DNA from: an uncultured Desulfocapsa sp.
GTDB taxonomy: Bacteria; Desulfobacterota; Desulfobulbia; Desulfobulbales; Desulfocapsaceae
NCBI GenBank assembly: GCA_947311435.1
Contig: CAMZKT010000021.1
Span: 1 to 52,401 of the forward strand
Reading direction: 5' to 3'
DNA length: 52,401 bases
Positions 25,454-32,750 of the stretch are shown here, piece after piece. The position numbers were made by a program, and so were the translations under genes. The notes beneath the pieces were generated by a model. That model saw only the letters and a program-made list of their open reading frames with translations. It ran no database searches and was not told where the DNA came from. Each line of letters begins with the position of its first letter. Position 1 is the first letter of the stretch.

Positions 25454-27199
25454 TTATCGTAAAGGGACTGCGATGATCTGGCGATGGTTGTTGTTGAGTT
25501 TGAAGCGGCGTTTGTTGATGGTGTTTTTTATAATTAAACTGCAGTTGCCGATTGTCAGTTCAGTACCGACAAAAACAGTACCCGAGATATCGATAAAAAT
25601 ATCTTCAATCTGACATTCTTTTATCCCGGTGAGATCTTCCATACCTTCTTCGGTCAGTTCTGAGTCATCTGCCCCAACCCTGGAAAAGAGTTTAGTTCCC
25701 GGGATAAGGTTGAGCCTGATGAGTTTTCTCTTAATTTCATCGACTTTGGCGTCCATGTCTTTTATTCTTTTTGATCTGCTGCGGCCTCCGCTGAGTTGCA
25801 GTTTTTGTATGATTTCATTTTGTTGTTCGATGAGTTTTCGAGAAAGATCTCGTTGCAAAAGGAGACGACTGTGGTCCACTCCTGCAGCAAGGAGCGCTGG
25901 CTTTCCATTGGGAGAACCAACATTATCTGCCGTGAGCATATCTCCTGCGACAATCTCACCTCCAATGATTGTTGAACCGGGCTTGCATCTAATGGATCCT
26001 ATGGCTGTTATACCACTATAATAGGATTGTTTACGGATAATTATGTTGCCGCCTGAGGTGATTTTTCCCTGTTCAATGAAATTGAAGTCAACATCTCCAA
26101 GGGCTTTGATTGCTGTTTTTTGTCCGGTAATGCCCCCCTTAATGATGATATTGGCATCACTTGAGAGAGTGGCGGACATCACCTCTTTTCTTACTTCGAG
26201 ATCACCCCCGGCGATTACCTTAAATCCGGGTTGCACTGCTCCATGTATGAGGACACAGCTTTTTGAATTGATATTTCCGGTAGTGTAATCAACATCGCTC
26301 TGCAACTCATGCTTGGAACAGACATTTATTTCACACTTATTGACAACTGTCAGAACCCCGTCTTTGCTTGCTGTGATTTTACCCGTTTCCTCAGAAAATG
26401 AGACGTCGTTTTTTATTTTGACGGTTAATGGAGTTCCCCCCCTGGGCGCAATTTGCTCACCCAATACGTTGGTTCCCGGAGTGCCGGGGATTGCGGGTAT
26501 TTTTGTGGCAAGTAATTGATCTTTTTCAACACCTATCATGATACGGCGTTCTCGAAAGTCGATGCTGCCATCTTCAAGAAGTTGTCCGGTAATGGGGCCT
26601 ATCTCAAGTGCAAATTCCAGATAGGCGTCTTCTCCTTCTTCCGGTGACTTGCCAAAGGCTATGGGGATCTCAAGAAAGTCTCCATAGCCCCGCGTGATAA
26701 GTTCCTGGGTTTGTTGCAGGCTTGACTGTTTTATACCAAACAGAATTCCTGCTTCCACCAGGAGTTCAGGGAGCGGTGCACTCGCAGGAGAAAATCCATT
26801 GGGGATGGGAGGATGAAGACAAAGGGTGGCTTTCATATTAGAATCAGTTAGTTTCACAAAGGGCGTAACAGAGACGAGGAGAGAAGGATTCTGGTCATTG
26901 GCATTATTCATGGTGTCAATTCTTGGATACCCCATGATGTCAGCCAGGAGAGTTTCGCCATCTTCAGAAAAGAGAGTGTTTTTTCCCGCACGTATAGGGA
27001 TTTTGGTGAGACCCTGTTCAGCATGTTCCTGAAAATCAGGGAAGGAGAGAAGTGGCTGTCCTTGACGAACCAGCTCGGAAACAGTTACTTTTTCCATTCT
27101 TTCTTCATCTTCTCCAACCAGGATTTGTTGTCGTGCAAAGTGAAGCCTTGGTTCGATATGTTTCTTGTTTGAATTTGATGTGTTATCGACGTTTTCCAT
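25454..27199 (-). CDS. fapA: FapA-family (DUF342) polymer-forming protein
   Basis: 581 residues. The family signatures are seen in the first half (FSEDGETLLADIMGYPRI; PAIPGTPGTNVLGEQIAPRGG, then a right-handed beta-helix-like region with CVLIHGAVQPG, VIAGGDLEV, IIIKGGITG, GNIIIRKQ). A coiled coil follows at about 445-485 and a short beta domain ends the protein. In FapA proteins the N-terminal region binds MinD-like ATPases (FlhG, MinD). The partner here could be the orphan ParA encoded about 6 kb away, but this is speculative. First gene of the fapA-sbcD-sbcC operon. No ribosome-binding site is obvious (CCACCCCC before the ATG). Confidence 0.85.
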   Translation of the reverse strand: MENVDNTSNSNKKHIEPRLHFARQQILVGEDEERMEKVTVSELVRQGQPLLSFPDFQEHAEQGLTKIPIRAGKNTLFSEDGETLLADIMGYPRIDTMNNANDQNPSLLVSVTPFVKLTDSNMKATLCLHPPIPNGFSPASAPLPELLVEAGILFGIKQSSLQQTQELITRGYGDFLEIPIAFGKSPEEGEDAYLEFALEIGPITGQLLEDGSIDFRERRIMIGVEKDQLLATKIPAIPGTPGTNVLGEQIAPRGGTPLTVKIKNDVSFSEETGKITASKDGVLTVVNKCEINVCSKHELQSDVDYTTGNINSKSCVLIHGAVQPGFKVIAGGDLEVRKEVMSATLSSDANIIIKGGITGQKTAIKALGDVDFNFIEQGKITSGGNIIIRKQSYYSGITAIGSIRCKPGSTIIGGEIVAGDMLTADNVGSPNGKPALLAAGVDHSRLLLQRDLSRKLIEQQNEIIQKLQLSGGRSRSKRIKDMDAKVDEIKRKLIRLNLIPGTKLFSRVGADDSELTEEGMEDLTGIKECQIEDIFIDISGTVFVGTELTIGNCSLIIKNTINKRRFKLNNNHRQIIAVPLR

Positions 27200-27512
27200 G
27201 GGGGTGGTTTTTTTTTAAAACTGTTCTGACGGCAAAGATATTTATTCTGTGAAAATTAAAGCTTTGTGATTCAGGGGATTAGGGTAAAATTACATTTATG
27301 CTATTTTATAGTATAGATATTGTAATGCTAAGTAAAGGGAAATGAAAAACTTCAGAGGCTATGTGAAGGAAGAACGCATAGAGATACCAAAGACTTTGTG
27401 ACTTGTCTTTAAGGGCTGCCGAATGTGTTGATACTAACAGGGAATGATGCTGTTTGTTGATCTGTATTTTGTGAAATATCCGTGAATCACCTAAAATAAA
27501 GAAGGACTGACG
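27200..27512. other. Divergent intergenic region
   Basis: 313 nt between the minus-strand fapA operon and the plus-strand Sel1-repeat gene, so both promoters should lie here. The region is AT-rich around 27290-27340, with several TATA-like hexamers. None has a convincing -35 box at proper spacing, so no promoter is called. Confidence 0.4.
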
Positions 27513-28091
27513 ATGAAAAGTTATTTTTTAGGAGTGCTGCTCCTTTTTCCTTGTTGTACATATGCTTCTGACGCTGCAAGTCAGTGTCGCAATCACTTTT
27601 TACACGGGCAATATTTTGTGGCCGAAGAGTCCTGCCTTGCTGCCGCAGAAGAAGGAGACGCGGATGCCAAAAAATGGTTGGCTTTGATGTATACTAAAGG
27701 AAAAGGAGTCAAACAGGATTTTAAGAAGGCTTTTTATTGGAGGAGAGAAGCTGCAAAAAGAGGAGACTCAAACAGTCTATATCATCTTGGCCGTTTGTAT
27801 CAACTGGGCCATGGTGTTGGGCAGGATTTTCCCATGGCCAGGTACTGGTATAAAAAATCTGCCGGGAATGGTGATATGAACGGGGTGTATGCTTTAGGAA
27901 ATATGTACAGAAAAGGTTTTGGGGGGCTTGTGGATATCCCAAGAGCATATGCCTGTTATATTGTGGCTGCCGAAAAGAACTTTCAATTGGCGATTCAAGC
28001 TATTCAAGACCTGGAACAATCCATGACTGCTGAGCAGAAAGCCGAAGGAGATCGACTTGTTAGAGAAGGACTGTACAGCAACGATCCTTGA
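27513..28091 (+). CDS. Secreted Sel1-repeat (SLR) protein
   Basis: 192 residues with AAGGA about 8 nt before the ATG. The signal peptide is about residues 1-19 (MKSYFLGVLLLFPCCTYAS). At least three Sel1-like repeats follow: G-x-x-x-AKKWLALMYTKGKGVKQDFKKAFYWRREAAKRG, then SLYHLGRLYQLGHGVGQDF and GVYALGNMYRKGFG. The repeats bind peptides and act as scaffolds; substrates are not predictable. A strong intrinsic terminator follows 35 nt after the stop. The Sec-rhodanese gene converges on it. Confidence 0.85.
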   Translation: MKSYFLGVLLLFPCCTYASDAASQCRNHFLHGQYFVAEESCLAAAEEGDADAKKWLALMYTKGKGVKQDFKKAFYWRREAAKRGDSNSLYHLGRLYQLGHGVGQDFPMARYWYKKSAGNGDMNGVYALGNMYRKGFGGLVDIPRAYACYIVAAEKNFQLAIQAIQDLEQSMTAEQKAEGDRLVREGLYSNDP

Positions 28092-28126
28092 TTGTTTGGT
28101 GACAGGCTGCGTACTGTCACTGCATC

Positions 28127-28166
28127 AAAGAGTCGTCGGCCATTGTTGCTGACGACTCTTTGGTTT
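28127..28166 (+). terminator. Intrinsic terminator of the Sel1-repeat gene
   Basis: AAAGAGTCGTC (28127-28137) pairs with GACGACTCTTT (28151-28161), and three more inner pairs (28138-28140 with 28148-28150) leave a 7-nt loop. The stem is followed by GGTTT. A-rich and T-rich flanks make it partly bidirectional, so it may also shield the convergent rhodanese gene. Confidence 0.75.
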
Positions 28167-28260
28167 GCCGATGTTCAGTAGAAAAACTGTAACTTCAGGT
28201 GGAACTGCAAAATTAGCAAAACCACCGAACAGTTACGAAATACTTTTCTTTATTTTATAT

Positions 28261-29598
28261 TTATTCGTCAATGTCACAATCATTTTGTTCGCAAGAGACT
28301 TCAGCCTTGAGGAATTTTGCGTTTACATAACCGTTTTTAACAAGTTCTTTATAGGCCATTTCAGCACGGGCACCGGTTGCACAGTGGATGAAAATGTGTT
28401 GTTTTTTGGTAAGGCCTTCAATATTTGACAGGAATTCATCCATTCTGCTGCAGAGCTGATCGAGAGGGATGTGCTGTGAACCTTTCAGTTTTCCGACCTT
28501 TACCTCTTCATTTGTTCGTACATCAAGAATGACAGCCATGGCAGGATTAGCAAGTGCTTTTTGAAAGTCGGCCACTGAAACTTCTCCAGGAGCCATTTTT
28601 CTTTTCCAGGTAACTTCTGTAATCACGGGGCCTTTGATAAGCTTGCCACCAAGCCGTTTCCAACCGTAGTAGCCACCTTCAACCAGAGAAACCTTTTTGT
28701 AACCCTCTTCCTTGAAAAGTTTCAGAGCTGCCAATGATTGCTGTTCATTGTCGCTCAGAAGCACAACCGGGGCTTTGAGGGGGATTTCATCCATGACTTC
28801 TTCTAGAGTGTCAAAGGGCATACTCACAGAACGTGGGATACGGGATTCAGTGGCTTTATTTGTACTACGCAGATCAATAACCACATTGTTGCCCTGACAA
28901 ATAAATCCATATCCGGCGTAGGTGGGATTCCCTGCTTTACTCCAGGCAGGCTCACCATCTAAATAGACATAAACGTTCTTATAACCAGCTTGGACCGCCT
29001 GACCGGCGGACATTGGGCTCATGCCTCATGTGGGGCCCCCACAATAAAAAACCAGAGGTGTATCCTTTTTCTTAGGCAAAAGGCTAATGAGTTCCTGCAT
29101 CTCGCAGACTGGAATGGAAATAGCGCCGGGAAGATGTCCCTGCCCGTAGCGTGCAGCAGGGCGGGAGTCAACCAGGACAAAATCGCTTTCACTCTCAATC
29201 AGGGTTTTTAGTGCAGCTGTGTCGATTCTTGAAACGCCTTTGGGAAGTTTTGAAAGTTTAGGCTTGATGGATATGACATAAGTATCCTTACCTTGTTTCT
29301 TGTAAGTAACGATAACACCATGGCCTTTTGTTGCGTGTTGTATGCCCTTAGTGTTTTCGTCAAATTTGAGTAGTAAGGTTTGGGCTTTGGCACCCTTTCC
29401 CACTTCCAGAGAAAGTGTCTTTGCCTTTTTGGATTTTCCAACAATCCGTCCTTTATAAACGGGCCCTCTTATTTTTTGTTCTTTAGAAACATTTTGTTGT
29501 ATCGCTTTTGTGCTCTGGCTGGCATCTTCTGCACAACTGCTTAATAAAAAAGCAGCAATAATTAAAAATGGCAGCATTCTGAAAACTTGTTTTTGCAT
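28261..29598 (-). CDS. Selenocysteine-containing triple-rhodanese lipoprotein
   Basis: 445 residues if the UGA at 29026-29028 is read as selenocysteine 191. The ATG at 29598 follows GGAGGAAAT closely and gives a lipoprotein signal with lipobox LSSC (Cys22). A small beta domain (about 45-120) precedes three rhodanese-like domains. Domain 1 (about 124-215) has Cys186 and Sec191 in YCGGPT-U-G, where relatives have Cys. Domain 2 (about 235-320) has LLSDNEQQ and no active Cys. Domain 3 (about 340-430) has Cys406 in HCATGARA. Both halves are in the same frame and the protein family continues smoothly across the UGA. A SECIS-like hairpin follows (see separate entry). It probably handles sulfane sulfur in the envelope. 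Without UGA decoding it would be two truncated pieces. Confidence 0.85.
28995..29028 (-). promoter_or_regulatory. Bacterial SECIS-like hairpin after UGA (rhodanese)
   Basis: Reading the minus strand from the UGA (29028-29026), 16 nt of coding sequence lead to a perfect 5-bp GC stem CCGCC/GGCGG (29009-29005 with 28999-28995) that closes the loop GGUCA. The loop begins 21 nt after the UGA. The E. coli fdhF SECIS has a closely similar layout, with a GGUC apical loop at 18 nt. The G-rich start of the loop is the feature recognised by SelB. This element lies inside the coding sequence, as is normal in bacteria. Confidence 0.75.
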
Positions 29599-29734
29599 AT
29601 TTCCTCCTTCATGGAATGTAATAGGGCACCATGGTGAGTTGCCCATGTTTATTTGTTTGTTGCGCGCTGACTTGCTGATTCAATCGAAGATACATTGTCG
29701 TAGCCCTGCCCTCAATAGGTAACGAATCTTCATC

Positions 29735-32147: not shown

Positions 32148-32750
32148 ATGAAAAGGCAATATCTTTTTTTTACCGTGTTTATCGGTACAGTATTGTTATC
32201 TACAACGGCTTTTGGACTGTCGGAAACATTCAAGGGGCATATTTATAATCCCGGTCAATTAAAACCTGTTGATAGTGTTTTGAAGGTGAAGATCGGGGAG
32301 CCTGCACCGGATTTCTCATTGGCTTCGGTGGGTGGTGATTCTGTAAGTCTTAGCTCTTATGAGGGAAAAAAGAATGTGGTCATCTCTTTTGTTCCGGCAG
32401 CTTGGACGCCGGTTTGTTCCGACCAGTGGCCGGGCTATAATATCGTAAAAGGATTGTTTGATGAAAACGATGCGGTTCTTTTGGGGATTACAGTTGACAA
32501 TATTCCTACTCTTTTTGCCTGGACCCGGGAAATGGGTGACTTGTGGTTTCCTGTGTTGTCTGATTTTTGGCCCCACGGAGCTGTAGCTAAAAAATATGGT
32601 GTGCTCCGTTCCGATGGGACGACGGAGAGGGGTCTTGTTTTTATCGACAAGAAGGGGATTATACGACTCATCCATGTTGGAGATATTAATGTCCGTCCCA
32701 AGCTGGAAATCATAGCCGGGGCTCTTGAAAGAATGAATACAGCGCAGTAG
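32148..32750 (+). CDS. Exported peroxiredoxin/redoxin-like protein
   Basis: 200 residues with GGAG 9-12 nt before the ATG. The signal peptide is about residues 1-23 (MKRQYLFFTVFIGTVLLSTTAFG). The redoxin domain starts KIGEPAPDFSLASVGGDSVSLSSY and has the peroxidatic-type motif PAAWTPVCSDQ with Cys90. No obvious resolving Cys is present, so it would be a 1-Cys type or use a partner. It lies 47 nt downstream of the Sec-redoxin gene. The two probably form an operon and may share a thiol/selenol relay in the periplasm (inference). Confidence 0.85.
   Translation: MKRQYLFFTVFIGTVLLSTTAFGLSETFKGHIYNPGQLKPVDSVLKVKIGEPAPDFSLASVGGDSVSLSSYEGKKNVVISFVPAAWTPVCSDQWPGYNIVKGLFDENDAVLLGITVDNIPTLFAWTREMGDLWFPVLSDFWPHGAVAKKYGVLRSDGTTERGLVFIDKKGIIRLIHVGDINVRPKLEIIAGALERMNTAQ

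Follow-up and report, generated by a model that had tools for sequence, protein, structure and literature searches.

The window, which is the whole 52,401-nucleotide stretch of Desulfocapsa sp. DNA that was analysed, contains on its minus strand a gene for a rhodanese lipoprotein in which an in-frame UGA almost certainly encodes selenocysteine (Sec) at residue 191. The whole reading, that of a Sec-decoded rhodanese lipoprotein, is held with high confidence, if slightly less than the assignment of Sec191. This assignment is made because UGA and Cys interchange at a fixed site, the RNA following the UGA is under selection as a hairpin, and the coding sequence is conserved on both sides. On the minus strand, a single TGA is all that separates frame 29646-29026 from frame 29022-28261, which has the same register; this confirms the account of a lone UGA at 29026-29028 given in an earlier note on this DNA. 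When the TGA (29028-29026) is read as Sec (U), the two frames become a single protein of 445 residues, with U as residue 191 in the motif YCGGPT-U-GMSPMSAGQAV. The features of the gene are as follows.

29598-28261, minus strand: complete Sec-containing coding sequence, 445 amino acids plus stop; in orthologues the reading frame likewise continues across this UGA.
29603-29608, minus strand: ribosome-binding site AGGAGG, 5' of the ATG at 29598, read from the sequence.
29533-29544, minus strand: predicted lipobox LSSC with lipidated Cys22; Cys22 is kept in 52 of 67 relatives, and seven of the remainder have a gap.
29260-29460, minus strand: small N-terminal β domain, residues 47-113; five predicted strands, pLDDT of the block mostly 85-90.
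28936-29214, minus strand: rhodanese domain 1, which holds Cys186 and Sec191; best Pfam PF00581 stretch, residues 129-221.
29041-29043, minus strand: Cys186, the canonical rhodanese catalytic position, invariant (67/67).
29026-29028, minus strand: in-frame UGA, Sec191; of 67 three-domain relatives, 60 have UGA at this codon and 7 have Cys.
28995-29009, minus strand: bSECIS hairpin CCGCC-GGUCA-GGCGG, with covariation, an invariant loop G and low fourfold entropy.
28654-28896 (approximate), minus strand: rhodanese domain 2, probably inert, from Pfam and NCBIfam stretches; without a conserved Cys.
28309-28581 (approximate), minus strand: rhodanese domain 3, with a canonical HC-A-T-G-A-R loop, from Pfam and NCBIfam stretches; Cys406 and Arg411 invariant (67/67).
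28381-28383, minus strand: Cys406, the second catalytic cysteine, invariant (67/67).

As read from the sequence, the 445-residue protein opens with a signal peptide containing the lipobox. A Pfam profile search matched the remainder to the rhodanese superfamily (PF00581; 141 bits, E=1.5e-41) in three stretches, and the product is probably a lipid-anchored periplasmic three-domain rhodanese of the outer membrane. Two further rhodanese domains had been proposed beside the Sec-containing one. Both are present, and domain 3 has the canonical HCxTGxR loop, but a census of the 67 relatives found no conserved Cys in domain 2, which is probably catalytically inert. The AlphaFold model of the 445-residue protein is weak (pLDDT 68.4, pTM 0.47) and too poor for geometry; a fold search with it returned only generic multi-domain rhodaneses (1yt8, EanB, YnjE), a result that is uninformative at such confidence.

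The same TGA codon is present in all ten homologues first found to span the site in a scan of genome contigs (56-74% identity; from Desulfocapsa, Desulfobulbaceae and other MAGs). In most of 93 genomes of the host family there is a long relative; as a rule it has a single internal TGA, though in a few cases it has no TGA at all. Among the aligned three-domain relatives (~32-74% identity), the codon for residue 191 is UGA in 60 of 67 and specifies Cys in the other seven, as had been anticipated for homologues of this protein; Cys186, Cys406 and Arg411 are invariant in the same alignment. All seven Cys forms belong to a single genus. They mostly read CGGVTCGMS or CDGVTC, have UGC or UGU at site 191, and are single, uninterrupted genes. 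A phylum-wide sample yielded a homologue at E<1e-30 in 38 of 395 genomes. More distant homologues that keep Cys186 and align at position 191 have U or C there; in a few lineages the loop is shorter and lacks the Cys186/191 pair. Values of dN are 0.12-0.18 on the 3' side of the UGA vs 0.22-0.25 on the 5' side, with dS saturated; by this measure the coding part beyond the UGA is constrained at least as strongly as the part before it.

The hairpin that follows the UGA has the stem-loop sequence CCGCC-GGUCA-GGCGG, and its loop begins after 21 nucleotides, the position claimed earlier for a SECIS-type element. The folding energy of this single hairpin is unremarkable (z -0.07 to -1.09), and a SECIS therefore cannot be proved from a single sequence. 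We compared 59 distinct Sec sequences, comprising the three-domain genes and a few shorter Sec paralogues, and numbered the hairpin with position 1 at the U of the UGA codon. Pairs 21-33, 22-32, 23-31 and 24-30 are formed in 59/59. Compensatory changes (C-G, U-A and A-U) occur at 21-33 and also at 24-30, and genes of other families supply G-C at 21-33; the outermost pair, 20-34, is not conserved (32/59). G26 in the loop is invariant in the Sec sequences (59/59) vs 4 of 13 Cys sequences, and in most of these 13 the stem is broken. In a subset of the sequences, sliding the partner by 1-3 nucleotides lowered the pairing from 100% to 25-53%, and shuffled sequences never attained the observed pairing at 21-33, where the shuffles ignore relatedness. 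Of 57 conserved fourfold codons, the third base varies least in 198, 199 and 201, the very codons that form the hairpin (entropy 0-0.24 bits vs a median of 1.76). An Rfam scan at the hairpin gave no family at the cut-off, only sub-threshold chance matches. Taken together, these comparisons go far beyond chance; they show selection on the hairpin as RNA and make Sec at the UGA, inserted under direction of the hairpin in our reading, close to certain, in line with the selenoprotein claim of the earlier note. Shorter rhodaneses of the family (L103-L106, L110) with a CxxxxU motif, such as FYCMGPRUPYS, have the hairpin in the same register.

In the rhodanese superfamily, the persulfide is carried by a Cys that follows a β-strand; here this residue is Cys186 of FYC. 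Cys186 and Sec191 do occupy one loop, as first described, and the alignment indicates that Sec stands in for the loop partner of the catalytic Cys and not for the catalytic Cys itself. Because Cys and Sec share the loop, a redox cycle suggests itself, and on balance we favour a sulfane-sulfur mechanism with domain 1 as a redox sulfurtransferase. Cys186 would accept a sulfane sulfur, with polysulfide, thiosulfate or S0 as the source, and hold it in a persulfide, which would be attacked by Sec191, five residues further on, with release of sulfide. The resulting selenenylsulfide between Cys186 and Sec191, a bond that we infer as the earlier note did, would then be re-reduced by an electron carrier. 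In the reverse direction, sulfide would be oxidised to persulfide. Domain 3, with Cys406 in its CxTGxR loop, would exchange persulfide sulfur with domain 1 in either direction, and domain 2 would be a structural part. Periplasmic sulfane-sulfur redox transfer via the Cys186-Sec191 pair is thus the role that we consider likely. Sud of Wolinella succinogenes is a periplasmic single-domain Cys rhodanese-fold polysulfide transferase; as an exported rhodanese passing sulfane sulfur to a Psr-type reductase it would work in a like manner, the likeness being one of proposed role.

The genes next to the one in the window encode Sel1, FapA, SbcD, SbcC, Band 7 and NfeD proteins and provide no sulfur-metabolism context. 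The FapA-SbcD-SbcC neighbourhood is common to Desulfocapsa relatives, and the Sel1 neighbour to the closest orthologues (locus 25454-29598). These closest orthologues (70-74% identity) come from different genera within the host's family; the best congeners have 58-59%. A horizontal origin was weighed on this account, and the mixed shared neighbourhood allowed no conclusion. Four distant Cys homologues (L157-L160, ~30% identity) have an added CxxCH haem-c motif before the N-terminal domain and adjoin genes for molybdoenzymes whose best NCBIfam match is PhsA, below its cut-off. The loci examined around Cys homologues also contain 4Fe-4S and NrfD/PsrC partners, with PsrC as best match. By gene context, these Phs/Psr-type neighbours connect the family with electron transfer and with inorganic sulfur, a connection that does not extend to the copy in the window.

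Sec191 might instead serve in antioxidant defence, in the reduction of peroxides or disulfides, or in metal(loid) handling, which would leave the protein a selenoprotein without sulfane-sulfur chemistry; we regard this as a rather unlikely alternative. Most prokaryotic selenoproteins are homologues of thiol oxidoreductases (PMC9312934), and the porin gene of the Geobacter ExtH cluster influences selenite and tellurite reduction (PMC5877670). An AhpC/TSA-type protein is also encoded ~2.5 kb from the Sec gene (32148-32750, plus strand), but on the opposite strand, and none was seen beside the relatives examined. Sulfur transfer is favoured over such functions by the two invariant rhodanese cysteines, one of them in the canonical CxTGxR site, and by the Phs/Psr neighbours of the Cys homologues.

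The host MAG (2.45 Mb, 134 contigs, 88.8% complete) was searched for the Sec decoding genes that the earlier note had named. It contains selA (593 bits) and selD (366 bits; L155, G000:C35:404-1342, minus strand), the latter being itself a Sec gene (STVKAAGUAAK), but neither selB nor tRNA-Sec was recovered. The apparent selB matches proved on inspection to be EF-Tu and another translation GTPase, and the apparent tRNA-Sec matches to be tRNA-Leu, tRNA-Trp and tRNA-Arg. The SelB winged-helix domain is present in 81 of 93 family genomes, and 16 of 20 genus genomes have a tRNA-Sec above the cut-off, which ARAGORN calls as tRNA-SeC(tca). Given the incompleteness of the MAG and the presence of both genes in most congeners, their absence is likely to be an assembly gap. 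A second Sec rhodanese is encoded in the host genome (L173, G000:C13:23765-24100, minus strand); it is a single-domain, exported protein of the known CxU form (LVLYCAUPSEA). Sec-containing SelD occurs in most of the host's family as well. In genus g12, four of five genomes (G064-G067) have a UGA rhodanese and no SelB-wing_3 match; their genus-mate has a match, and either a gap or a divergent SelB may account for the difference.

The missing selB and tRNA-Sec could also mean that the UGA is a true stop, leaving a split or decayed gene with a 190-residue single-domain lipoprotein followed by a separate or dead gene. Both halves are indeed open frames, and there is an ATG at 29022, close behind the UGA. 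This explanation is nevertheless highly improbable, as it is contradicted by the occurrence of UGA in 60/67 relatives with Cys in the others, by the constraint on the hairpin, by the intact coding sequence downstream, and by the Cys versions, which are unbroken genes. A sequencing or assembly error in the fragmented MAG, or a genome-wide reading of UGA as Trp or Gly, is more improbable still, the UGA being common to independent assemblies, the other genes in the window being long and open under table 11, and the Cys relatives using UGC or UGU at the site. A stop codon, a pseudogene, an error and an altered code are all rejected on the conserved UGA/Cys interchange and the hairpin evidence.

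Rhodaneses with Sec had been called rare, which needs amending: they are an established kind, with at least five forms catalogued. A 2026 catalogue lists rhodanese selenoproteins of the forms UxxS, UxxG, CxU, UxxG and UxxxxU (PMC13188914). The CxxxxU lipoprotein passes no NCBIfam cut-off, and none of the papers found in our literature search describes this protein. Comparison of the genes indicates that several distinct Sec rhodaneses share the CxxxxU loop. In TsoB (NF045694; form 5, UxxxxU, PMC13188914), the second Sec aligns with Sec191. TsoB differs in having Sec at the catalytic-Cys position too, a length of ~590 residues and a DsbD-like part, whereas the CxxxxU lipoprotein has one Sec and scores 67.8 bits against the TsoB model, far below the cut-off of 805. 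TsoB-like proteins of ~590 residues are encoded in sister genomes (L098-L102), with two UGA codons per rhodanese loop (FYUxGLTUVRS, e.g. FYUAGLTUVRS). The LYCAU rhodanese (NF041203; form 3, CxU), the form with a copy in the host genome, is likewise exported and has a Cys at the catalytic position followed by Sec. It has a single domain, however, with Sec two residues past the Cys instead of five; the CxxxxU lipoprotein scores 76.9 bits against this model, below the cut-off of 115. The motif of form 1, UxxS (WP_010941598.1; PMC13188914, PMC9312934), also fits U191-G-M-S194, a likeness of motif, and it is possible that the protein was catalogued before under this form.

Relatives with Cys offer further parallels. 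In the BH2092 rhodanese (PDB 3nhv/3o3w), YCWGPACNG aligns with YCGGPTUGM, which puts a Cys at the Sec position and a Cys-Cys pair at 186/191; this protein differs in having a single domain and no Sec. Geobacter ExtH is a rhodanese lipoprotein of 49.0 kDa encoded near a porin and a small protein of 104 residues (PMC6148476, PMC5877670). Its reported size is similar, and its setting resembles that at L159 and L160, where the Cys homologue comes after a DUF3373 protein and a protein of 103-107 residues (cf. extHIJ). No selenocysteine is reported for ExtH, which may be a Cys relative of the CxxxxU lipoprotein; it is likened here by description.

Judging by the alignments, dozens of species related to this sediment sulfur bacterium have retained the UGA arrangement. 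Standard annotation would split the gene at the UGA, and a protein of most species in a sulfur-cycling family has probably been missed or misread. The natural series of Cys and Sec forms at the loop-partner site makes it possible to probe what selenium contributes to sulfane-sulfur chemistry. More speculatively, and as a proposal that we put forward with considerable doubt, the lipid-anchored three-domain Cys-Sec rhodaneses could be an undescribed family of selenoenzymes. These would carry out sulfane-sulfur redox transfer in the envelope (polysulfide or S0 reduction, or sulfide oxidation) in Desulfobulbales and other Desulfobacterota, and would supply a missing early step of sulfur reduction or disproportionation.
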